Assembly: GCF_963675585.1 (NCBI RefSeq)
Contig: NZ_OY776413.1
Span: forward strand, 62,001 to 126,000
From: an uncultured Draconibacterium sp.
GTDB taxonomy: Bacteria; Bacteroidota; Bacteroidia; Bacteroidales; Prolixibacteraceae
DNA length: 64,000 bases
Direction of reading: 5' to 3'
Position 1 is the stretch's first letter. Each line of letters starts with the position of its first letter. A program made the translations under genes and the position numbers. The notes under the pieces were generated by a model, which saw nothing but the letters and a program-made list of their open reading frames with translations, ran no database searches and was not told where the DNA came from. Shown piece after piece: positions 1 to 10,358 of the stretch.

Positions 1-701
1 TCGGAGAAAAACTCGTCGCCCAGTTCGCGCGAACCTGCGGCCACTAAATTCACAACACCCTCGGGCACGTTGTTTGCTTTTAAAACTTTTGCAATAATGT
101 TGTGCACGGCCACTGCGCATAAAAATACTTTCGACGAAGGTTTCCAGATAACCACATCGCCGCTAATTAAAGCGATCATTGTATTCCATGCCCAAACTGC
201 AACCGGAAAGTTAAAAGCCGAAACCACCCCTACAATTCCCAGCGGATGATACTGATCGTACATCCGGTGTTTTTCGCGCTCCGAGTGCATAGTCGATCCG
301 TACAACTGGCGCGACTGGCCAACAGCAAAATCGCAGATATCGATCATTTCCTGCACTTCTCCCAAACCTTCCTGGTAAATTTTACCCATTTCGTACGAAA
401 CCAGTTTACCCAGCGGCTCCTTGTATTTTCTCAATTCCAAGCCCATTTGGCGGACTACTTCTCCGCGTTTTGGCGCCGGAATCATTCGCCAAACTTTAAA
501 TGCATTTTTGGCCTTTTCAACAACCTCGCGGTAATCGGCAGCAGTTGCCTGATTCACTTTGGCAATTAATGCACCATCCGATGGAGAAAAAGATTCAACA
601 ACACTGCCTGCTGTTTCTTTCCATACCGTTCCGGTGCAAACCCCATTGTTAACTTCTCTAATTCCTAACTCTGCTAATTCTTTCGAAATATCAATTTTCA
701 T
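1..701 (-). CDS. ALDH7/antiquitin-type aldehyde dehydrogenase, N-terminal part (probable 2-aminoadipate semialdehyde dehydrogenase)
   Basis: This reading frame is open from an ATG at 701-699 to the window edge, so about 233 N-terminal residues are visible and the catalytic Cys lies outside. The protein starts MKIDISKELAELGI and has the NAD-binding-fold stretch AFNFPVAVWAWN followed by VVIWKPSSK. These match the ALDH7 (antiquitin/AASADH) subfamily rather than generic ALDHs. ALDH7 enzymes oxidise 2-aminoadipate 6-semialdehyde to 2-aminoadipate with NAD(P)+. It is the last visible gene of the minus-strand cluster, 159 bp after the thiolase stop. A Lys9-like saccharopine dehydrogenase, whose product would be this substrate, lies at the other end of the cluster. 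Subfamily call is by remembered similarity; substrate is inferred from family and context. Confidence 0.85.
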   Translation of the reverse strand, partial: MKIDISKELAELGIREVNNGVCTGTVWKETAGSVVESFSPSDGALIAKVNQATAADYREVVEKAKNAFKVWRMIPAPKRGEVVRQMGLELRKYKEPLGKLVSYEMGKIYQEGLGEVQEMIDICDFAVGQSRQLYGSTMHSEREKHRMYDQYHPLGIVGVVSAFNFPVAVWAWNTMIALISGDVVIWKPSSKVFLCAVAVHNIIAKVLKANNVPEGVVNLVAAGSRELGDEFFS

Positions 702-753
702 TGTCTTTATTTTTAGTTGTTATTAATTTCTTTTTACTCCTCACCCTTCGGGA

Positions 754-830
754 GCTCCCCTCCTGAGGGGAGCATTCTCCAATCAGCTTTTTCAGTTAAT
801 CCAGGCAGTTTTCCCCTTTTAAAGGGGAAA
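754..830. repeat. Two adjacent GC-rich inverted repeats between thiolase and ALDH7 genes
   Basis: The 159-bp gap contains two perfect hairpins. At 754-773 the arms GCTCCCCT/AGGGGAGC enclose a 4-nt loop; at 810-830 the arms TTTCCCCTTT/AAAGGGGAAA enclose one base. A small GCC-GAAA-GGC hairpin follows at about 832-841. None has a clean U-tract in the direction of the operon (minus). They could be an attenuator or mRNA-processing site separating ALDH7 expression from the upstream genes, or a dispersed intergenic repeat. Function is not known. Confidence 0.6.
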
Positions 831-860
831 TGCCGAAAGGCAAAGGGGTATACTTATTGT

Positions 861-2066
861 TTAAACTTTCTCCAAAACCATGGACAAACCCTGCCCAACA
901 CCGATACACATTGTACAAAGCGCGTATTTGCTACTACTATTTTGTAACTGATAAAATGCCGTTGTCACCAGTCTTGCTCCTGACATTCCAAGCGGGTGCC
1001 CCAGTGCAATTGCACCACCAAGCGGATTAATCCTCGGATCGTCATCTGCCAAACCCAACTCGCGGGTACATGCCAGCGACTGGGCAGCAAATGCCTCATT
1101 CAATTCAATGATATCCATTTGTTCGATTGTCATTCCCAAACGTTTTAGCAACTTATTGGTAGCCGGAACAGGACCAATTCCCATAATTCGTGGCGGCACA
1201 CCGGCTGCCTGCGTTCCCAGAATTTTTACTCGCGGTGTTAAATTGTATTTTTTAACTGCGGCTGCCGAAGCCACTATTACTGCGGCAGCGCCATCGTTAA
1301 TTCCAGAAGCATTCCCGGCAGTTACAGTTCCTTCTTCAAGCGAAACAGGTTTTAATGTCGCTAGTTTTTCAGGCGATGTTAATCGTGGATGTTCATCCTT
1401 ATCAACCAAAATCGGATCGCCTTTTTTTTGTGGAATAGAAACAGGAACAATTTCACGTGCCAGCATTCCGTTGTTTATGGCTGTAGCAGCTTTTAACTGA
1501 CTGGAATGCGCAAATGCATCCTGATCTTCTCTGCTTATTTTATATTCGCTGGCAAGATTTTCTGCTGTACAAATCAGCGGATCGGTTCCAAATTGTGTAT
1601 GAAATTTATCGTTTACGAAGCGCCAGCCAATGGTAGTATCGAACAATTCAGGTGCACGCGAAAAAGCTGTTTCTGATTTTGCCATTACAAAAGGAGCACG
1701 CGACATACTTTCAACTCCACCGGCGATAATTATATCAGCTTCGCCTGCTTTAATGGCCCGGGCGGCAATACTAATTGCCTCCATTCCCGAGGCACACAAA
1801 CGATTTACGGTTACACCCGAAACACTTTCAGGGTAGCCCGCCAGCAACAATGCCATTCGGGCAACGTTACGATTGTCTTCGCCAGCCTGATTGGCGCAAC
1901 CAAGTATTACATCGTCTACAACCACATTTTTTAACTGCGGATTTCTGTCGATTAAAGTTTTTAACGGAATCGCAGCCAAATCGTCTGCTCTCACCGATGC
2001 CAAAACGCCACCGTATTTTCCAACCGGTGTTCGTATGGCATCGCATATAAAAACATCTTTGCTCAT
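861..2066 (-). CDS. pcaF: PcaF-like 3-oxoadipyl-CoA thiolase
   Basis: Thiolase-superfamily enzyme of about 401 aa that cleaves a 3-oxoacyl-CoA with CoA. The nucleophilic Cys is in the NRLCASGMEA motif; the general-base His is in GHPLGMSGARLV and the second catalytic Cys in CTMCIGVGQG near the C-terminus. Stretches such as LGCANQAGEDNRNVARMA and the SGARLVTTA region resemble 3-oxoadipyl-CoA thiolases (PcaF/PaaJ) more than short-chain acetoacetyl-CoA thiolases. The ATG at 2066 is chosen because it begins MSKDVFICDAIRTP, the usual family start; an in-frame start at 2090 would overlap the upstream gene. Only one base separates it from the aminotransferase stop, implying translational coupling. 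Predicted products are succinyl-CoA and acetyl-CoA. No protocatechuate or phenylacetate genes are nearby. Confidence 0.85.
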   Translation of the reverse strand: MSKDVFICDAIRTPVGKYGGVLASVRADDLAAIPLKTLIDRNPQLKNVVVDDVILGCANQAGEDNRNVARMALLLAGYPESVSGVTVNRLCASGMEAISIAARAIKAGEADIIIAGGVESMSRAPFVMAKSETAFSRAPELFDTTIGWRFVNDKFHTQFGTDPLICTAENLASEYKISREDQDAFAHSSQLKAATAINNGMLAREIVPVSIPQKKGDPILVDKDEHPRLTSPEKLATLKPVSLEEGTVTAGNASGINDGAAAVIVASAAAVKKYNLTPRVKILGTQAAGVPPRIMGIGPVPATNKLLKRLGMTIEQMDIIELNEAFAAQSLACTRELGLADDDPRINPLGGAIALGHPLGMSGARLVTTAFYQLQNSSSKYALCTMCIGVGQGLSMVLEKV

Positions 2067-2067
2067 T

Positions 2068-3402
2068 TTATTTTGTTTTAAGTTTATCAATTGTAGTTTT
2101 TAGCGCTGTAAATGCTGCTTTTAATCCCTCCGAAAGCCGGTCAATTTCAGTCTGAGTCATAACTGTTGAAAGCATACACGAGAAGGTATTCACCATCAGA
2201 ATTTTTTGTTTTTGATACATAAAATCCAGCAGCTGCCCAATAACTGCACTCTCCTCTTTCGACTGATAAGCCTCCCTGTACGTTTTTGGAGGATTTTCTC
2301 TTAAATGAATCCGAAACATGGAGCCGGCTCCGGTCACCGAAATCGGTAGATCTACCAATTCAATCACTTCTTTAATCTGCGAAATGGCTGTCCCGGTGAG
2401 TTTATTTAAATTTTTAACGGCATCCCTATCGAAATACTCCATTGCTTTAAAACCTGCAGTCATGGTAATTGGATTTGCCGAAAAAGTTCCTGAATGAGGT
2501 AAAAGCAGATTTTTTTCGTGCGGGTCGAATACTTTCATCACATCTGCCCTGCCGGCCACAGCACCTACCGGAAATCCTCCTCCAATAATTTTCCCCAAAG
2601 ATGTTAAGTCCGGTTTTACCGGCATATTTTGCTGTGCTCCTCCGTAATTTACCCGAAACGTAATTACTTCGTCGAAAACCATAAGTACATTGTTTCTGCG
2701 GGTCCAGTCGTACACCTCCTGAATAAAATTACGTGTACCCGGCACTAATCCCACACGATGCGGAACCGGATCGATGATAACGCAAGCAAGTTCTGAAGCG
2801 TGTTTCTCAAGTATCGAAAGTGTTCGTTCAATATCGTTGTACGGATAAATAATTACATCGTTTGATACACTAGGCGGCGTTCCGTAGGCAAGCGGCACAC
2901 TACTTGGGTTGTCAACATCGCCCCAATTGGATGGGTTTGCCGTTTGACTTACTTCGGCAAAATCGTAGGTGCCATGATATGAACCTTCGGCTTTGGCAAT
3001 TTTTGAACGTCCTGTAAAAGCCCTCGATGCTTTAATCATGGCCATCACCGCCTCGGTTCCCGAATTTACAAAACGGATGCGTTCGAAACTTTTTACCCGC
3101 TTGATCAGATGTTGTGCAAAAGCAACCTCAATTTCGGATGCAAGTGTATATGCAGTTCCTTTTCTAAGTTGTTCAATCACCGCTTCAACAATGGGTGGAA
3201 ACGAATGACCGTGGATAAGCGCTGCCATGTTATTGGCAAAATCAATCCGCTCGGTGCCTTCAATATCGGTAATATAACAGCCTGCCGCAGTGTTGGCATA
3301 ATTCGGGTATGGTTGTCTGAAAATCGTATTTCTGCTCACTCCTCCGGCAAGCACTTTTTCTGCCTTCCGATACAATTTTTCACTATTACTTTTCTTTGTC
3401 AT
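2068..3402 (-). CDS. Class III PLP aminotransferase, GSA-aminomutase-like (candidate beta-amino acid transaminase)
   Basis: 444 aa, fold-type I class III aminotransferase. Visible features are the GTEAV phosphate-binding turn near residue 116, the pyridine-nitrogen Asp244 in VFDEVITF, the Schiff-base Lys271 in TSLGKIIGGGFPVGA, and HSGTF at about 303-307. It resembles glutamate-1-semialdehyde aminomutases, but the gene sits in a catabolic operon without heme genes. The same subgroup includes beta-amino acid transaminases such as beta-phenylalanine aminotransferase, with a similar length and a similar HSGTF stretch. It lies 17 bp after the CoA-transferase B gene and 1 bp before the thiolase. 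I infer that it converts 3-aminoadipate plus 2-oxoglutarate to 3-oxoadipate plus glutamate. The fold is certain; the substrate is a hypothesis. Confidence 0.85.
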   Translation of the reverse strand: MTKKSNSEKLYRKAEKVLAGGVSRNTIFRQPYPNYANTAAGCYITDIEGTERIDFANNMAALIHGHSFPPIVEAVIEQLRKGTAYTLASEIEVAFAQHLIKRVKSFERIRFVNSGTEAVMAMIKASRAFTGRSKIAKAEGSYHGTYDFAEVSQTANPSNWGDVDNPSSVPLAYGTPPSVSNDVIIYPYNDIERTLSILEKHASELACVIIDPVPHRVGLVPGTRNFIQEVYDWTRRNNVLMVFDEVITFRVNYGGAQQNMPVKPDLTSLGKIIGGGFPVGAVAGRADVMKVFDPHEKNLLLPHSGTFSANPITMTAGFKAMEYFDRDAVKNLNKLTGTAISQIKEVIELVDLPISVTGAGSMFRIHLRENPPKTYREAYQSKEESAVIGQLLDFMYQKQKILMVNTFSCMLSTVMTQTEIDRLSEGLKAAFTALKTTIDKLKTK

Positions 3403-3419
3403 TTTATTCGTATTGAATA

Positions 3420-4055
3420 TTAAGATCGGTGAAGTATTGCTTCGGTTTGTTGCTGCAATTCCTCGAAACTCACATTCGGTGCCAGTTCCTTAACCACCAG
3501 TTTTTTATCAAGCACATCGATTATGGCCAAATCGGTATAAATGCGGCTAACAACATTTTTCCCTGTAACCGGATAGCTGCATTCTTTTACAATTTTAGAA
3601 GCCCCGTTTTTTGTACAGTGTTTGGTAATTACATAGATGGTTTTTACACCTGCCACTAAATCCATTGCACCGCCAACCGCAGGAATATCGTTTGGATTAC
3701 CTGTTGACCAGTTCGCCAGATCGCCTTCTTCTGAAACCTGATACGCACCAAGCACGCAAATGTCGATGTGTCCGCCACGAATCATGGCAAAACTATCAGC
3801 ATGGTGAAAATAGGCCGCCCCGGGTATGGCCGTAATGTATTTTTTACCTGCGTTTACCAACTCAGGATCCTGATTCGCTTCGGTGGCTACTTTTCCCATC
3901 CCAAGCAAACCATTTTCAGTATGATAAATTACTTCGCGTCCTTCAGGAATAAAATCTGCCACAAGCTCAGGTATTCCAATTCCCAGATTTACATATGCGC
4001 CGTCAAAAATATCCATGGCTACCTTTTGTGCCATTTCGTTTGTACTCCACCCCAT
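3420..4055 (-). CDS. pcaJ: 3-oxoacid CoA-transferase subunit B, PcaJ-like
   Basis: Beta subunit of a family I CoA-transferase. The catalytic Glu is in HTENGLLGMG, and the GAYVNLGIG, FHHADSFAMIRGGH and SRIYTDLA stretches resemble PcaJ (3-oxoadipate CoA-transferase). The start at 4055 (MGWSTNEMAQ) is preferred because it lies 4 bp after the subunit A stop; an in-frame ATG at 4076 would add seven residues and overlap subunit A. With subunit A it transfers CoA from succinyl-CoA to 3-oxoadipate, or to acetoacetate if it is Sco/Ato-like. In this operon the product would feed the thiolase two genes downstream. Family is certain; 3-oxoadipate specificity rests on remembered similarity and the adjacent PcaF-like gene. 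Confidence 0.88.
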   Translation of the reverse strand: MGWSTNEMAQKVAMDIFDGAYVNLGIGIPELVADFIPEGREVIYHTENGLLGMGKVATEANQDPELVNAGKKYITAIPGAAYFHHADSFAMIRGGHIDICVLGAYQVSEEGDLANWSTGNPNDIPAVGGAMDLVAGVKTIYVITKHCTKNGASKIVKECSYPVTGKNVVSRIYTDLAIIDVLDKKLVVKELAPNVSFEELQQQTEAILHRS

Positions 4056-4059
4056 ATTT

Positions 4060-4782
4060 TTATGATTTAATTGCATGGTACCTCACTTTATCCGCTACTA
4101 ATTTCGATTCATCAGCCGGATGTGTTACCTCCACCACCCGGTGTACAAATATTCCCGGTGTTACCACATGTTCCGGATTTATTTCACCAAGTTCAAGAAT
4201 TTGTTTTGCCTGAACAATTGTAGTTTTGGCAGCTGTACACATTACCGGCCCAAAATTTCGCGCTGTTTTGTTGTAGATCAAATTGCCGTATTTATCGGCT
4301 GCAGCACATTTAACCAACGAAAAATCTGCCCGAATTGCGGGCTCCAACACGTAAGTTTTTCCATCAAAAGTGCGCTGTTCTTTGCCATCAGCAAGTGGTG
4401 TATGTACCGATGCCGGCGTATAAAATGCAGGAATACCTGCTCCTCCAGCCCGAATCCTCTCGGCGAGTGTTCCCTGCGGAACCAGTTCCAGTTCAATTTC
4501 TCCGGCTCTGTACAATTCGGGAAAAACAACCGAAATAGCAGTGCGCGGAAACGAACAGATAATTTTACGGACCTGCCTGTTTTCGATTAATGCAGCCAGT
4601 CCCACATTGCCACTGCCTGCATTGTTGCTTACCACAGTAAGATTCTTTGCTCCCTGATCAATCAATGCATGAATCAATTCAATGGGGCTGCCCGCTTCGC
4701 CAAATCCACTGATCATAACAGTGGCTCCGTCAAACACATCACTTACCGCTTCTTTTGCCGATGTTACAACTTTGTTGATCAT
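4060..4782 (-). CDS. pcaI: 3-oxoacid CoA-transferase subunit A, PcaI-like
   Basis: Alpha subunit of a family I CoA-transferase, 240 aa, normal length. It starts MINKVVTSAKEAVSD and has ISGFGEAGSPIELI, SNNAGSGNVGLAALI, CSFPRTA, VPQGTLAERIRAGG and TPGIFVHRVVEV. This run of motifs resembles PcaI of the beta-ketoadipate pathway closely. Its ATG overlaps the stop of the upstream radical SAM gene by 4 bp (ATGA), so the two are probably translationally coupled. It should form a heterotetramer with subunit B and activate a 3-oxo acid with succinyl-CoA. Acetoacetate is the alternative substrate. Confidence 0.9.
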   Translation of the reverse strand: MINKVVTSAKEAVSDVFDGATVMISGFGEAGSPIELIHALIDQGAKNLTVVSNNAGSGNVGLAALIENRQVRKIICSFPRTAISVVFPELYRAGEIELELVPQGTLAERIRAGGAGIPAFYTPASVHTPLADGKEQRTFDGKTYVLEPAIRADFSLVKCAAADKYGNLIYNKTARNFGPVMCTAAKTTIVQAKQILELGEINPEHVVTPGIFVHRVVEVTHPADESKLVADKVRYHAIKS

Positions 4783-6359
4783 GACTCTTTTGCTTTTGTC
4801 ATTTGTTTTTCCAAAGCCTCCGAAAGTGTGTTCTCTATTCGGGATAACTCATCTTCATAGAAATAGTGAGTAGCACCGTATGGTTTTAGTTTTTCAATCG
4901 TGTTTTCCTGCTCATCGTACTCAGCAAAATATACGGTATCCATCCACTCCATGTTTCTTGCTTCGTTAAACTTGAGGGCAAAAACCTTTTCACCATTAAT
5001 TTCTGCAGTTCCCATTAATGATGTTTTTCCGGCCGAAGATGTCATTGTAATATAGCGCGACGGACGGTTAATGGAAGCCAGGCTTCGGTACACTTTGCTG
5101 AATATTTTAGTGATATCGGCCAATGGCGCTGTAAAATAGTGATGTTCGCCGGTTGGTCGGGCGCAGTACATCGAATGAAAACCAATACCTAAAATGGCCA
5201 TTATGTTCCCCAGATCAATCCAGTTTTGCGCAGACCGGTCAACATCCACTTTCCCGTTTTCGTTTCGGTATAAACTAATGTGATTCATTATCGGGCTTTG
5301 ACTTTTAACTGTAATTCCAAAGCTTTTTAAACGTTTAACTGCCGCAACAGCGCCCGGATTCAACAATTCGTACGGAGTAGAAATATGAGCCATCCAAACC
5401 ACCTGAATGCCACTGTTGATGGTGTATTTTAACAGCTCCAGTATTTTTGTGAATTTATCGCTTAAAATCAGCTCGGGATGGAAAGTGATGGCTCGCGATC
5501 CGATTCGCAGTGTGCGAATATGCATTAAGTCCGGATCTTCAATTAATGGAGTAACATACTCGAGCAATCGCTCAAAAGGAATGTAACCCCCATCGCCACC
5601 GGTTATTAAAACATCGCTGATTTCGTTATGACGTTTTAAATAGTTGTGCACCTGTGCTACGCTTCGCTGTACAAACATATCTTCGTCGCCCCGCACCTGC
5701 GCATGCCTGAAACAATAGGTGCAAAACGCAAAACAACTTTGTGTTGAACTGTCAAGAATCAGTTTTACCGGAGGATATTTGTGCTGACTTCCGTCCAAAA
5801 TTTCAAGTTGCCCCTCATCGTTTACATACCAGGGTTTATTTAGCTTCTGCTTGCCATCATGCGGATTTGTTTTTAACAGATACGCCTCTACAACATTTTT
5901 TCTTTCATCATCGCTGCCTGCCACCAAATACAACTTTACATCTTCCGGATTCATCATTCCGGCCTGTGGAAATACCAGGTGATAATTGGAATCCTGTTCG
6001 TAATTGCTCCAGTTTATGGTATTCAGAATGTGTTTTGTAACCATAAAACGGTACACTTCAATAAAAAACTCGCGTTCTTTTATGTCCTTAATTTCAATGC
6101 CGTTCTCTTTTAATTTCTGAATAATTTCGCGAAAACCTTTTAAGCCGGAATAATGTGTTTTATCGGTAAAAATGGCCTTGTCTGTTTTTAAAAATCCGGT
6201 ATACTGAGGGTAACAATTTTGCAGACGGTTAACCACACCTTCAGAAAGCAATTCTTCTGTTTGAATGGTTTTAATACTTTCTGAACTAAAGTCGTACTTC
6301 TGCATCAACTCTACCAAACCTGAGGCTGGCACCAACGTTTTTTTTATCTGTGAATTCAT
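4779..6359 (-). CDS. Radical SAM enzyme of the lysine 2,3-aminomutase (KamA) family, substrate probably not lysine
   Basis: 526 aa, about 100 residues longer than clostridial KamA because of an N-terminal extension. It has the 4Fe-4S cluster motif C209-x3-C213-x2-C216, the following Arg218 (KamA uses the equivalent Arg to bind the substrate alpha-carboxylate), a glycine motif TGGDGG at about 253-258, and a PLP Lys at K445 in SSAGKTSLMG. KamA binds the lysine epsilon-amino group with two Asp residues. At the equivalent places I see CARP (399-402) and TMTSSAGK instead, so both acids seem absent and an Arg is nearby. That fits a carboxylate side chain such as 2-aminoadipate. It is the first gene of the minus-strand operon. 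An oxygen-sensitive enzyme is expected. Family confident; substrate inferred. Confidence 0.85.
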   Translation of the reverse strand: MNSQIKKTLVPASGLVELMQKYDFSSESIKTIQTEELLSEGVVNRLQNCYPQYTGFLKTDKAIFTDKTHYSGLKGFREIIQKLKENGIEIKDIKEREFFIEVYRFMVTKHILNTINWSNYEQDSNYHLVFPQAGMMNPEDVKLYLVAGSDDERKNVVEAYLLKTNPHDGKQKLNKPWYVNDEGQLEILDGSQHKYPPVKLILDSSTQSCFAFCTYCFRHAQVRGDEDMFVQRSVAQVHNYLKRHNEISDVLITGGDGGYIPFERLLEYVTPLIEDPDLMHIRTLRIGSRAITFHPELILSDKFTKILELLKYTINSGIQVVWMAHISTPYELLNPGAVAAVKRLKSFGITVKSQSPIMNHISLYRNENGKVDVDRSAQNWIDLGNIMAILGIGFHSMYCARPTGEHHYFTAPLADITKIFSKVYRSLASINRPSRYITMTSSAGKTSLMGTAEINGEKVFALKFNEARNMEWMDTVYFAEYDEQENTIEKLKPYGATHYFYEDELSRIENTLSEALEKQMTKAKES

Positions 6360-6584
6360 AAAAATGTTTTAAAAAATTCATGTAGTAAATAATCTGAAGC
6401 TTTTTTGTGCCTTCTGAAAGAGTAGAGCAGCCCTAAATTACGCGCTCAAACACAGGAATTAATTATTGACAAACAATTTAAATCCGAAATCAGAACAGAA
6501 CCACAACAGGTTGACTACCTTCAAAAAAACACATAAAAGCGCTGAAAACACAAGCAACAAATGAACGTATTGCTTGCAAAAACG

Positions 6585-6600
6585 AGCTACGAACGTAGCT
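6585..6600. promoter_or_regulatory. Perfect palindrome, candidate operator
   Basis: Inverted repeat AGCTACG-AA-CGTAGCT, with 7-bp arms and a 2-bp centre, in the middle of the divergent control region. The short spacer suits a dimeric DNA-binding protein rather than an RNA hairpin. The regulator is unknown; none is encoded nearby. Confidence 0.45.
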
Positions 6601-6663
6601 AATGCGACATTGTATCATCGTCGAGACACTCTGGCATCCCGAGGTAAAAAAATACCGGACATT

Positions 6664-6682
6664 GATACGATTGAATCATATC
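6664..6682. promoter_or_regulatory. Near-perfect palindrome, candidate operator
   Basis: GATACGATT-G-AATCATATC: 9-bp arms with one mismatch around a single central base, on the saccharopine dehydrogenase side of the control region. It differs from the 6585 palindrome, so two regulators or two modes of control are possible. Confidence 0.4.
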
Positions 6683-6876
6683 ACTAAAATACGAACTTTT
6701 AGAGGGAATAAAATGATTTTTGACCTGTTTTAAAAAACAAGAGAATGTGTAAGAATCTTACATAAATCAGTTGTTATTCGAATAATAAACACCACCTTTA
6801 GAGACGAGAAAACAAAAGGAACGATTTTTGTTAACAATTGGTGCACCCACCGATTTTAAATTTAGAAAACAAGAAC

Positions 6877-8208
6877 ATGATTAAAGTATTATTACTTGGC
6901 GCCGGGATGGTTGCCAAACCCATTGCGAATTATTTACTACAAAACAATATAGCACTTACCATTTGCAGCCGCACTTTATCGAAAGCCGAAAAATTAATAA
7001 ATGGCCACCCTAACGGAAAAGCTTTTGCCTGGACCATTGACGATTTTGACACACTCGACAAAATGATTGCAAACCATGATTTAACAGTCAGTTTGTTGCC
7101 TTTTGCACATCATGTAACAGTGGCGCAACTGTGCATAAAGCACAAAAAAAACATGGTAACTACATCGTATGTTTCCGATGCCATGAAAGAGCTTGACACA
7201 GAAGCCAAAGAAGCCGGAATTATTATACTAAATGAGATTGGTCTTGATCCGGGTTTTGACCACATGACTGCCATGCACATTATTGACAAAGTGCAGAGTC
7301 AGGGAGGAAAAATAAAGGAATTTTATTCTTTATGCGGCGCACTTGCAGCTCCTGAAGAAACTGACAATCCGTTAAAATATAAATTCTCGTGGTCGCCCAA
7401 AGGAGTTATAATGGCCGGAAACAATGGGGCTAAATTCAAAAAGGATGGACAAATTGTGGAGATTTCAAGCAAAAACCTTTTTAAAAATCCCCTGCAAATT
7501 AGTTTCCCGGAAGTTGGACCAATGGAAGTTTATCCAAATCGCGATTCTTTGGCTTATATCGATTTGTATAATTTGCCCAACGTAGAAACAATGTACCGCG
7601 GAACTTTTCGCTATAAAAACTGGTGCGAAACCATGGATGCCATAAAAGCACTGGGGATGGTAAACTACGAAAAAAAGGATTTTAAAGGGAAATCGTACAA
7701 AGAAGTTGTTGCCGAACAAATTGGAGTTTACCCGGCCAACGTAAAGGAAAAGGTTGCCGAACGACTTGGTTTGCAATTAGACAGCCCTGCAATTGTTGCC
7801 ATGGACTGGCTGGGACTTTTCAGCAAGTTTAAAGTGCATTTAGAAGAAGGATCAACTTTTGACCTCACTTCTGATTTAATGCTTGAAAAAATGATGCTGC
7901 CCGAAGGAGCCCGCGACATGGTTATTATGTTACACTCCTTTTTAATTGAAACTGCTGACGGAAAAAAAGAAGTAATAAAATCGCGACTTTTGGATTTTGC
8001 AAACGAAGAAGATACATCGATTGCCAGAACCGTTGCGTTACCAGCAGCTATTGCAGTACAATTAATTTTGGAAGGAAAAATTACCGATACCGGCGTTCAT
8101 ATTCCAATCGCGAAGACCATTTACGAACCGGTTTTAAGCGAACTGAAAAAAATGGGCATCGCTATGGTTGAAGAATGGGGATTGCCTGAAAGTGAGAAAT
8201 TGGGATAA
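6877..8208 (+). CDS. Saccharopine dehydrogenase, Lys9-like (L-glutamate-forming)
   Basis: 443 aa from the ATG at 6877. An upstream in-frame TTG at 6838 would add 13 residues that precede the conserved start MIKVLLLGAG. An N-terminal Rossmann motif GAGMVAKP is followed by NEIGLDPGFDHM, APEETDNPLKYKFSWSPKG and YPNRDS, all hallmarks of the fungal Lys9/animal AASS C-terminal saccharopine reductase. The enzyme splits saccharopine into 2-aminoadipate semialdehyde and glutamate with NAD(P)+. It is divergent from the operon that ends with an ALDH7 enzyme able to use that semialdehyde. The partner lysine-ketoglutarate reductase (saccharopine-forming) is not in this window. Confidence 0.88.
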   Translation: MIKVLLLGAGMVAKPIANYLLQNNIALTICSRTLSKAEKLINGHPNGKAFAWTIDDFDTLDKMIANHDLTVSLLPFAHHVTVAQLCIKHKKNMVTTSYVSDAMKELDTEAKEAGIIILNEIGLDPGFDHMTAMHIIDKVQSQGGKIKEFYSLCGALAAPEETDNPLKYKFSWSPKGVIMAGNNGAKFKKDGQIVEISSKNLFKNPLQISFPEVGPMEVYPNRDSLAYIDLYNLPNVETMYRGTFRYKNWCETMDAIKALGMVNYEKKDFKGKSYKEVVAEQIGVYPANVKEKVAERLGLQLDSPAIVAMDWLGLFSKFKVHLEEGSTFDLTSDLMLEKMMLPEGARDMVIMLHSFLIETADGKKEVIKSRLLDFANEEDTSIARTVALPAAIAVQLILEGKITDTGVHIPIAKTIYEPVLSELKKMGIAMVEEWGLPESEKLG

Positions 8209-8224
8209 CATGAGAATGCTATTA

Positions 8225-8244
8225 GCGAATTTAACTTTATTCGC
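8225..8244. terminator. Small hairpin between convergent genes
   Basis: Arms GCGAAT (8225-8230) and ATTCGC (8239-8244) sit between the saccharopine dehydrogenase stop and the convergent 8237 gene, overlapping its stop codon. The stem is short and there is no strong U-tract, so terminator function is only plausible. Confidence 0.3.
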
Positions 8245-8980
8245 GGTAGCGTTTTTCGTTTTGTTTATAACGTTTCTCAAAGTTGTAATCATTTGAGTCG
8301 GCGTGCGCTTTAATCACTTTCTTTTTTGTTGTATCGGTGTCGTCGCTCAGGTACACTGCATCATTAGGAGGAGAAGTAATTTCAAGAATCCGGCCATACT
8401 CTGCCGGCAATTTTAACTGAGTTGCATCTTTCCATACTCCATGTCCAAAAACGGCTATTTCTTCGTCTTTCTCTAAAACGCCCTCGTTAAATCGAAGTGT
8501 TTTATTCATTCCCAAAAAGCCTTCACTTTCATGTCCTCTGCTATGAAGGTATTGTTCCAGATTTTCAGTGGCATCGTTCATAAAACCAACAGAATAATTT
8601 CGGTCTTGTACAATGTAGCTTTTCAAATTATTATCGTTTATATAGGCACAACTATCTTCTTCCCGTATTACAAACCGGCAAGAAAGCTCCTCTTTTACAA
8701 GTGTTTTCCAGTATGAACTTTTTCCCGACGAAACTTTTTGTTCAACATGAATATAATAATAGGCACATTCACGTTTCGATAGCGGAGCAATAAGCGCTGC
8801 ATCAACAAATTCAACTTTCCCAACAATTTTTGCTACATCGCCGGCCTTGAACTCCACTATTCTTTTTTTCTCTGTCTTTTTTAGTTTCCGTTTAATAATA
8901 GCCTTTTTGCTAAAAAACCATTTAACAATAATAATTGATACGATTACTACAACAATAAAATAGAAGATCGGATTTTTCAT
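8237..8980 (-). CDS. Membrane protein with GIDE-like (MUL1-type) domain
   Basis: 247 aa. One hydrophobic segment at residues 4-24 is followed by a Lys/Arg-rich stretch, giving an N-terminally anchored protein with a large cytoplasmic domain. The core (AALIAPLSKRECAYYYIHVE, then WKTLVKEELSCRF and DSCAYI) resembles the GIDE domain of eukaryotic MUL1/MAPL and its bacterial relatives. No RING finger is present at the C-terminus, so ligase activity is not expected. Function in bacteria is unknown. It is convergent with the saccharopine dehydrogenase gene and has no obvious functional link to it. Confidence 0.55.
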   Translation of the reverse strand: MKNPIFYFIVVVIVSIIIVKWFFSKKAIIKRKLKKTEKKRIVEFKAGDVAKIVGKVEFVDAALIAPLSKRECAYYYIHVEQKVSSGKSSYWKTLVKEELSCRFVIREEDSCAYINDNNLKSYIVQDRNYSVGFMNDATENLEQYLHSRGHESEGFLGMNKTLRFNEGVLEKDEEIAVFGHGVWKDATQLKLPAEYGRILEITSPPNDAVYLSDDTDTTKKKVIKAHADSNDYNFEKRYKQNEKRYRE

Positions 8981-9326
8981 TTTATGGGATATTGAATATT
9001 AGTTGCAAACATCGTACTCCGTTTTTTTCTTAATCGCACAATAAACATTTAAAACCGGGAGTACGATTAAACAATGCAAATCATAAAAATTTTGTCGGAT
9101 TTAAAGGTCTCTAAAAATAATACCATAATTATAAATATGAAAATATTGCCACGCATTAATGTGAAAGTATTCTTTTACCAATCGCATGGCATTCGCATTT
9201 GAAATCTCAGTTCCTTGAAATTTATAGAAGATCACAAATAAATCGATCCTGCCACACAACAAATAAAATAAATACCGCCGCAAAGCTTTTCAAAAATTTG
9301 TATTTTGCAGCTTAAACAGTTCCAAA
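8981..9326. other. Divergent intergenic region with a distant inverted repeat
   Basis: 346 bp between the GIDE-like gene (minus) and the AI-2E family gene (plus). A perfect 10-bp inverted repeat is present: ATCGTACTCC at 9011-9020 and GGAGTACGAT at 9058-9067, 37 bp apart. A weak -7-like TATTTTG lies at about 9301-9307, upstream of the 9327 start. No gene is seen; the short frames here look random. Confidence 0.4.
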
Positions 9327-10358
9327 ATGGATAACGCAAAAAAAATCTATATTTTTTTAATTCTGGTTACAGTAGTTGTGGTGTGTATATATGCGCAGTC
9401 CATAATCATACCCTTTATTCTGGCCATACTTTTCTGGTTTTTAATCCGGGTGATAAAAAAACTTCTGCTGAAAATTAAATACATCGGGAAACTTCCAAGA
9501 TGGATACTTACCCTTTTTTCAACGCTGGTACTATTGGGATTTCTTGTTTTTGCAGGCACCATGATCTCAAATAACATTGCCGATCTGTCGAAAACGCTTC
9601 CGGCTTACCAGGCCAATGTAACTAAAATGACAACAGCTATCGATCAAAAATTCAACATCGACATTATGTCGCAGGTTGGCGATTTTGCGAAGGGATTAAA
9701 CTTTGCAAGCCTTTTGTCATCGTTATTGTCAACGTTAACCAGCCTTTTTGGAAACACATTCACTGTTTTGTTGTATTTGCTGTTTTTACTTTTAGAGGAA
9801 CCTATATTCCCGAAAAAAATAAAAGCCATGTACCCCGACCCAAAAAAATACGAACACATGAATGATTTGATCAGTAAAATAGACCACTCCATTGGAAACT
9901 ATATTGCTCTGAAAACACTTACCAGTCTGGTTACCGGATTTGTAAGTTACTTTGCCTTATTGTTTATCGGCATCGACGCGCCGGTATTTTGGGCATTTTT
10001 AATTTTTATCCTGAATTTTATTCCAACAATCGGATCGCTAATTGCGACTCTGTTTCCGGCCATGTTTGCAATATTGCAGTTTGGTGAATTTACTCCCGGT
10101 ATTTTAGTGCTGTCAATTGTAGGTGCCATCCAAATGATTGTTGGAAATATTATCGAACCCCGACTAATGGGAAACACCCTAAATATAAGCCCGCTTGTGG
10201 TTTTCCTTACACTTGCCATTTGGGGAGTTATTTGGGGAATTTCAGGAATGCTGCTAAGTGTTCCGATTACCGTAATTCTCATCATTATCATGTCGGAGTT
10301 TCCGGGCACACAGCCCTTTGCCATTTTATTAAGTCAAAGCGGCAAATTAAACAAGTAG
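9327..10358 (+). CDS. AI-2E family (PerM-type) membrane transporter
   Basis: 343 aa polytopic protein with about seven or eight hydrophobic segments and the family layout: two N-terminal helices, a hydrophilic stretch at about residues 85-125, and a C-terminal helical block with NFIPTIGSLIATLFPA and GNIIEPRLMGNTLNISPLVV. The family includes the E. coli AI-2 exporter TqsA and Na+/H+ antiporters, so the substrate cannot be assigned. A second member is at 26756-27817. It is followed by pepD with 87 bp between, no clear link. Confidence 0.88.
   Translation: MDNAKKIYIFLILVTVVVVCIYAQSIIIPFILAILFWFLIRVIKKLLLKIKYIGKLPRWILTLFSTLVLLGFLVFAGTMISNNIADLSKTLPAYQANVTKMTTAIDQKFNIDIMSQVGDFAKGLNFASLLSSLLSTLTSLFGNTFTVLLYLLFLLLEEPIFPKKIKAMYPDPKKYEHMNDLISKIDHSIGNYIALKTLTSLVTGFVSYFALLFIGIDAPVFWAFLIFILNFIPTIGSLIATLFPAMFAILQFGEFTPGILVLSIVGAIQMIVGNIIEPRLMGNTLNISPLVVFLTLAIWGVIWGISGMLLSVPITVILIIIMSEFPGTQPFAILLSQSGKLNK

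Follow-up and report, generated by a model that had tools for sequence, protein, structure and literature searches.

A divergent cluster of seven genes at the left end of a 64,000-nucleotide stretch (the window; C3:62001-126000) of the 6.03-Mb, four-contig genome of an uncultured Draconibacterium sp. probably encodes an oxygen-independent route of lysine catabolism that passes through 3-aminoadipate and keeps all six carbons. With only slightly less assurance, we propose that a mobile cassette of five genes, present in several phyla, is built around a new radical S-adenosylmethionine (SAM) enzyme, an L-2-aminoadipate 2,3-aminomutase, and that this cassette would convert 2-aminoadipate to succinate and acetyl-CoA, losing no carbon and using neither oxygen nor ferredoxin. 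A reductase encoded away from the cluster would form saccharopine from lysine and 2-oxoglutarate, one or more saccharopine dehydrogenases would convert saccharopine to glutamate and 2-aminoadipate semialdehyde, and an aldehyde dehydrogenase of the ALDH7 family would turn the semialdehyde into L-2-aminoadipate. The KamA-like radical SAM/pyridoxal phosphate (PLP) enzyme would then yield 3-aminoadipate, a HemL-like transaminase would pass the amino group to 2-oxoglutarate, and the CoA-transferase PcaIJ would add CoA from succinyl-CoA; transamination could take place on the free acid, giving 3-oxoadipate, or could follow the addition of CoA and turn 3-aminoadipyl-CoA into 3-oxoadipyl-CoA. The thiolase PcaF would release succinyl-CoA and acetyl-CoA from 3-oxoadipyl-CoA, and with one succinyl-CoA spent by PcaIJ, any lysine flowing through the pathway would end as succinate, acetyl-CoA, and two molecules of glutamate, with no CO2 released. 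No step would use oxygen, and the aminomutase itself is expected to be oxygen sensitive. The initial annotation of this DNA had put forward the same passage from lysine through 3-aminoadipate to 3-oxoadipate; the computational tests that it had named were in its favor or neutral. The sequence shows the enzyme families, the order of the genes and its conservation, and that a reductase is present; the substrates of the aminomutase and the transaminase, and the flux, are inferred.

The seven genes that had been described are all in place, and the cluster is larger than first described, extending to the left of the window. The gene on the plus strand (6877..8208, in a frame open from a TTG at 6838) encodes a saccharopine dehydrogenase of the L-glutamate-forming, Lys9 type, with domains PF16653 and PF03435 and full-length similarity to solved enzymes, of which fungal saccharopine reductase 1e5l is the closest match (phmmer E 2.2e-91). 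At the opposite edge, on the minus strand, positions 3..701 encode the N-terminal part of ALDH7, an L-piperideine-6-carboxylate (P6C)/2-aminoadipate-semialdehyde dehydrogenase that runs past the left end of the window; the complete gene (L009:6160-7701, about window positions -840 to 701) scores 798.2 against a cut-off of 730 for the P6C dehydrogenase model NF050084. A second saccharopine-dehydrogenase-type gene (L009:4756-6126) lies outside the window, 33 bp beyond ALDH7, and its product is similar over its full length to the part of AASS that acts as a saccharopine dehydrogenase (E 2.6e-65); the gene is also kept in the clusters of relatives. The route had been said to fall if the genome held no saccharopine-forming reductase, and the gene is present on another contig (C4:3395532-3396737, L013): of the genome's four matches to AlaDh_PNT_N, it is the one closest to the lysine-ketoglutarate reductase half of human AASS, with phmmer E values of 3.8e-42 to 5.7e-40 versus 7.9e-5 to alanine dehydrogenase.

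The other five genes, all on the minus strand, constitute the cassette, and its order is strongly conserved. Among the loci of the best 80 of 180 relatives of the aminomutase (56 to 74% identity), 61 extend 4.3 kb or more downstream of it, and 60 of these have the succession aminomutase-PcaI-PcaJ-aminotransferase-PcaF on the same strand, the single exception (L124) being without PcaF; in the remaining 19, shorter loci, the order was identical as far as the sequence extends. Recurrence on this scale means that the cluster is not a product of chance. By the titles of their records, the carriers are Bacteroidota, Ignavibacteria, Balneolales, Cloacimonadota, Deltaproteobacteria (one Desulfuromusa and one Desulfuromonadales), Shewanella, and Photobacterium, together with metagenome-assembled genomes (MAGs) that are, as binned, labeled Acidobacteria, Edwardsbacteria, and Chlorobiota. 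The most similar aminomutases among named records are those of Maribellus (Prolixibacteraceae) and Draconibacterium, and in a sample of 296 genomes of the window's phylum, a close orthologue (E≤1e-20) was present in the window's genome and in one other (64% identity), the other matches being 30 to 42% identical. Distances among the five proteins covary (Mantel r of 0.66 to 0.79 for 10 pairs over 51 loci; top shuffled value, 0.25), as would be expected of a unit inherited or moved together.

The strongest evidence that 2-aminoadipate is the compound that enters the cassette is that the same upstream pathway is joined to it in three unrelated groups. A gene for a saccharopine dehydrogenase, the reductase, or ALDH7 lies within the available flanks of 16 of the 80 loci, and 12 of these belong to Bacteroidota similar to the window's own (Prolixibacteraceae); all 12 have a saccharopine-dehydrogenase-type gene, accompanied in 11 by ALDH7. 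Two loci of Cloacimonadota (L077 and L084) have saccharopine dehydrogenase and reductase genes upstream of the aminomutase gene; those of L084 form a same-strand run with it, with gaps of 12 and 13 bp, and an AA_permease/SLC12-family gene follows PcaF, whereas in L077 the reductase and the aminomutase are separated by a 680-residue gene. In the third group, Deltaproteobacteria (L112 and L127, one of which is titled Desulfuromusa), ALDH7 is in the flanks (794.9 versus 730 for L112), L112 also has saccharopine-dehydrogenase-type genes, and both loci encode an ABC transporter of the polar-amino-acid type, with binding proteins that fall below any named-substrate cut-off. When 30 reductase loci of carrier genomes were inspected, 16, L077 and L084 included, had a saccharopine-dehydrogenase-type gene in their short flanks, and one further locus had ALDH7.

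The enzymes at the downstream end of the cassette belong to known families. PcaF (861..2066, in a frame open to 2090) exceeds both 3-oxoadipyl-CoA thiolase cut-offs, with 686.4 bits against 605 for NF006551 and 671.5 against 597 for TIGR02430, scores that were computed on a query (861-2072) with two extra N-terminal residues. All 34 cassette thiolases scanned match these two models at E≤1e-100, the score relative to the cut-off being known for the first one alone. PcaJ/ScoB (3420..4076) and PcaI/ScoA (4060..4782), the B and A subunits of a CoA-transferase, are likewise above their cut-offs (TIGR02428, 300.3 against 243.55; TIGR02429, 355.6 against 128.5), although these models cannot separate PcaIJ enzymes, which act on 3-oxoadipate, from ScoAB enzymes, which act on acetoacetate, and the best solved relatives of PcaI are succinyl-CoA:3-ketoacid CoA-transferases. 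The genes are tightly packed, as had been described: there is a 4-bp overlap between PcaI and the aminomutase, a 17-bp gap between the aminotransferase and PcaJ, and a 1-bp gap between PcaF and the aminotransferase if, as is likely, PcaF starts at the ATG at 2066. The PcaJ-PcaI junction is a 17-bp overlap or, if the second Met is the start of PcaJ, a small gap.

The class III aminotransferase (2068..3402; PF00202), a proposed 3-aminoadipate (or 3-aminoadipyl-CoA):2-oxoglutarate transaminase, is HemL/GSAM-like and fails the hemL model TIGR00713 (338.1 versus a cut-off of 527.3). Its best solved relative is 6k8h (E 1e-113), followed by ForI, GSAM, and the beta-amino-acid transaminases 4ao9 and 2yku. 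6K8H is described as a Sphaerobacter omega-transaminase with a gamma-amino acid and several beta-amino acids among its substrates (PMC10589169), and Kat of Cloacamonas is a characterized HemL-like class III acyl-CoA beta-transaminase, acting on 3-aminobutyryl-CoA, whose gene is beside a thiolase gene (PMC3149608); both modes of transamination thus have precedent. The same pathway could run with its last steps in the other order, PcaIJ making 3-aminoadipyl-CoA and the transaminase then acting on the CoA ester in the manner of Kat, which would avoid an unstable free beta-keto acid and would fit the gene order CoA-transferase, transaminase, thiolase of the conserved loci. We hold this order to be possible but rather doubtful: homologues of PcaIJ are known for beta-keto acids, and the nearest solved relative of the transaminase works on free beta-amino acids.

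The proposed L-2-aminoadipate 2,3-aminomutase (4779..6359; 526 residues) scores below the cut-off of every KamA-type model that it matches, including TIGR00238 (81.4 against 199.2), PF04055 (22.4 against 29.5), the lysine model TIGR03820 (56.9 against 525.4), and the glutamate 2,3-aminomutase model TIGR04368 (51.7 against 650), which marks it as a divergent outgroup among KamA-type radical SAM enzymes. The only solved structure that its sequence matches at E≤1 is that of lysine 2,3-aminomutase (LAM), 2a5h, which is also the best Foldseek match of its AlphaFold model (mean pLDDT, 81.5), with an E value of 7.7e-13 and TM scores of 0.51/0.65, and the only one at E≤0.001. A genuine LAM is encoded separately in the genome (L014; L136:7123-9268, contig C1), scoring 763.9 versus 525.4 for TIGR03820 with an E value of 1.5e-145 to 2a5h, and adjoins a beta-lysine N-acetyltransferase gene (TIGR03827, 311.5 versus 205.1); this AblA/AblB osmolyte pair likely serves the synthesis of N-acetyl-beta-lysine. 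Residue numbers were carried over through this genuine LAM, and conservation was assessed in 80 sequences, namely, 79 orthologues and the window's aminomutase. The iron-sulfur cluster motif CX3CX2C (LAM Cys125/129/132), R218 (LAM R134), and the PLP lysine K445 (LAM K337) are kept in all 80, as is R401 in place of LAM D293, and D330 is replaced by Thr in 66 and Ser in 14. In 2a5h, Asp293 and Asp330 of LAM hold lysine by its side-chain amine, and Arg134 holds the carboxylate; charge reversal at the first position and loss of the second would suit an acidic substrate. The register at LAM 293 comes from MAFFT alignments of three sets and from a BLASTP alignment of a paralogue with LAM that runs through this stretch without gaps.

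Two other contexts for these genes were considered and rejected, the second less firmly. For PcaIJF to serve an aromatic pathway, an intradiol dioxygenase would be expected, and none was found in the genome (PF00775, 0 matches; the control search was positive in 4 of 14 genomes). As for Kce-type fermentation, the sole match to BKACE (beta-keto acid cleavage enzyme; kce-like) in the genome (L135:11563-12438, C4) lies in a polysaccharide cluster, among glycosyltransferase, polysaccharide-synthesis, and DegT-type aminotransferase genes, an odd setting for the family. The concern that kce and kamDE might be found elsewhere in the genome is thereby answered only in part: the lysine 5,6-aminomutase model PF09043 had no match in the genome but none in the control genomes either, and kdd and kal were not searched for.

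A number of observations weigh against the route from lysine through 2-aminoadipate, at the level of both the carrier genomes and the aminomutase. The available flanks of 64 of the 80 loci hold none of the lysine genes tested. In 50 carrier genomes chosen from the 80 loci, the reductase was clear in 36 (E≤1.5e-32, with one partial match), weak in 1, and not found in 13, and NF050084-type P6C dehydrogenase was found in 28, so that 40 have one or the other and 10 have neither. All seven gammaproteobacterial carriers examined (six Shewanella and one Photobacterium) were without a clear reductase (one weak match, E 4.1e-9) and without P6C dehydrogenase, and all four Deltaproteobacteria examined were without the reductase. 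A further 12 of the 50, including both Cloacimonadota with a linked reductase, have the reductase and no NF050084 enzyme, so another aldehyde dehydrogenase would be needed there. The background rate of the reductase is 78 of 296 in the phylum sample, against which 36 of 50 looks strong, yet it rises to 55 of 70 in genomes labeled "same class" (0 of 2 in "same order"), and these genomes have no close orthologue of the cluster aminomutase; ALDH7 is not enriched in the carriers (28/50 versus 153/296). Given the same-class rate, co-occurrence across genomes adds little; this check, which the initial annotation had suggested, is weak as evidence, is confounded by relatedness, and proved uninformative (36/50 versus 55/70). 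An alternative entry by way of a lysine 6-dehydrogenase-like protein was tried and rejected: with a query from L077, whose best solved relative, 3abi, is presumably a lysine 6-dehydrogenase-type enzyme, 18 of 27 carriers matched at E≤1e-8, several of them merely as weakly as saccharopine dehydrogenases do, and none of the 7 gammaproteobacteria among the 27 did so.

At the level of the enzyme, the aminomutase model has pLDDT values below 50 at residues 208 to 228 and 402 to 406 and is unreliable at the active site; we read it as confirming an overall LAM-like fold, but the position of the arginine cannot be taken from it, because the loops around the cluster and the substrate are poorly modeled. 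One hhalign profile alignment with a single LAM sets Ala400, and not Arg401, opposite D293, although the acidic residue would be lost in either register. The invariant arginine is, moreover, common to all 28 distinct paralogues of unknown function that were aligned, so it points to an acidic side chain and not uniquely to 2-aminoadipate. A second KamA-like subfamily was noted in this connection, consisting of L015:1255-2550 (C3:587474-588649; TIGR00238, 141.6 against 199.2) and its relatives in L019-L046; all 28 distinct members have Arg at the position of LAM Asp293, and 31 of the 32 rows aligned have Ser at that of Asp330. None of the cluster's genes was adjacent in the five regions inspected, and the subfamily may comprise another aminomutase for an acidic amino acid.

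Among alternatives that assign the cassette a different substrate or direction, the best placed, though improbable, is that the enzyme is a glutamate 2,3-aminomutase and that the cassette degrades beta-glutamate via 3-oxoglutarate. An arginine at LAM D293 would fit any side-chain carboxylate, and the 10 carriers with neither reductase nor P6C dehydrogenase are compatible with such a role, but the score against TIGR04368 is very low, the thiolases match 3-oxoadipyl-CoA models when 3-oxoglutaryl-CoA would give malonyl-CoA, and lysine genes are linked to the cassette in three lineages. More improbable still is operation in reverse, with succinyl-CoA and acetyl-CoA built into 3-amino- or 2-aminoadipate for, e.g., osmolyte or lysine synthesis; in principle, the reactions of the thiolase, the CoA-transferase, and the transaminase can go either way, and Lys1 and Lys9 are biosynthetic in fungi, but an ALDH7 that passes NF050084 is oxidative, and the transporters at the two deltaproteobacterial loci are of the uptake type, with substrate-binding proteins. 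We give almost no credence to the view that the aminomutase acts on lysine and that the transaminase, CoA-transferase, and thiolase take beta-lysine to 4-aminobutyryl-CoA and acetyl-CoA, for despite the KamA-like fold, LAM as the sole solved relative, and the position beside lysine genes, both lysine-binding aspartates are replaced in all 80 sequences, a true LAM stands elsewhere beside a beta-lysine acetyltransferase, the specificity of PcaF does not agree, and the cluster would have no use for its saccharopine dehydrogenase and ALDH7. Action on lysine only, which the initial annotation had named as fatal to its proposal, is thus disfavored, and 2-aminoadipate remains the substrate that we prefer.

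Several neighboring features may bear on regulation. In the window, the divergent genes are 478 bp apart on their longest frames, and the intergenic region (6360..6876) presumably holds promoters, to judge from its position. An Rfam scan of window positions 1-9500 at E≤1 gave no match, so no lysine riboswitch was detected there, and none was found at the gathering threshold in six relatives' loci, where just two tRNAs and one DUF805b RNA appeared. A small helix-turn-helix (HTH)-cupin protein is encoded just upstream of the cassette in eight loci (L064, L068, L070, L071, L080, L105, L118, and L131), and a LysR-type regulator is encoded on the opposite strand in nine (L112, L113, L116, L120, L122, L127, L130, L132, and L133), adjoining ALDH7 in L112 and L127. 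These regulators, which were found by clustering, with domains checked in L064 (HTH-cupin) and L122 (LysR type), are candidates for the sensing of lysine or 2-aminoadipate. Five Shewanella loci (L113, L120, L122, L132, and L133) have tandem genes for small proteins on the upstream side of the cassette; L120:7380-7811, the one checked, encodes a universal stress protein (PF00582). In a deltaproteobacterial MAG, a BKACE gene (L108:8356-9183) lies about 0.75 kb upstream of the cassette, and we speculate that its product could cleave 3-oxoadipate with acetyl-CoA in place of PcaIJF.

To our knowledge, no reference pathway includes a lysine route through a 2-aminoadipate 2,3-aminomutase, and we found no report of a lysine route via 3-aminoadipate in the open-access literature of PubMed Central, although subscription papers could hold one; in the open-access literature, 3-aminoadipic acid turned up in a single paper, on a meteorite, and beta-aminoadipic acid in a single review. 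What would be new is the subfamily of the aminomutase, together with the substrate proposed for it, and the union of two known half-pathways; the other enzyme families are known. If the proposal is correct, two textbook pathways are joined by one new aminomutase, radical SAM/PLP aminomutases gain a new substrate, and sediment Bacteroidota and their relatives might oxidize lysine without oxygen and without loss of carbon. It would also provide correct names for genes that score below curated models and an enzyme chain from lysine to the C6 compound 3-oxoadipate that is possibly useful in chemical synthesis.

Lysine catabolism is usually taught as the glutaryl-CoA, the 5-aminovalerate/2-hydroxyglutarate, or the clostridial fermentation route. 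The cluster's pathway would share with the mammalian-type saccharopine/2-aminoadipate/glutaryl-CoA pathway the steps of lysine-ketoglutarate reductase, saccharopine dehydrogenase, and ALDH7 that lead to 2-aminoadipate, but it would then move the amino group to C3 and not remove it at C2, so that 2-oxoadipate would not be decarboxylated and CO2 would not be lost. The kamA-yodP-yodQ-yodR-yodS-yodT operon of Bacillus subtilis, like the cluster, combines an aminomutase with a CoA-transferase and a class III aminotransferase; it differs in having a true KamA, an acetyltransferase, and a deacetylase and in having no PcaF. Glutamate 2,3-aminomutase, another radical SAM/PLP enzyme that acts on an acidic amino acid, also has substitutions at the two Asp positions, but the cluster enzyme falls far below the cut-off of its model, and the gene context is that of lysine-to-aminoadipate genes. 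The clostridial fermentation of lysine (KamA, KamDE, Kdd, Kce, and Kal or Kat) also begins with a KamA-type 2,3-aminomutase and can employ Kat, a HemL-like beta-transaminase (PMC3149608). That pathway acts on lysine and needs a 5,6-aminomutase and Kce, whereas the cluster aminomutase is without the lysine-binding residues. The closest counterpart of the downstream half is the lower beta-ketoadipate pathway, in which PcaIJ transfers CoA to 3-oxoadipate and PcaF cleaves the product by thiolysis to succinyl-CoA and acetyl-CoA; in the cluster's pathway, the 3-oxoadipate would be derived from an amino acid and not from an aromatic ring.

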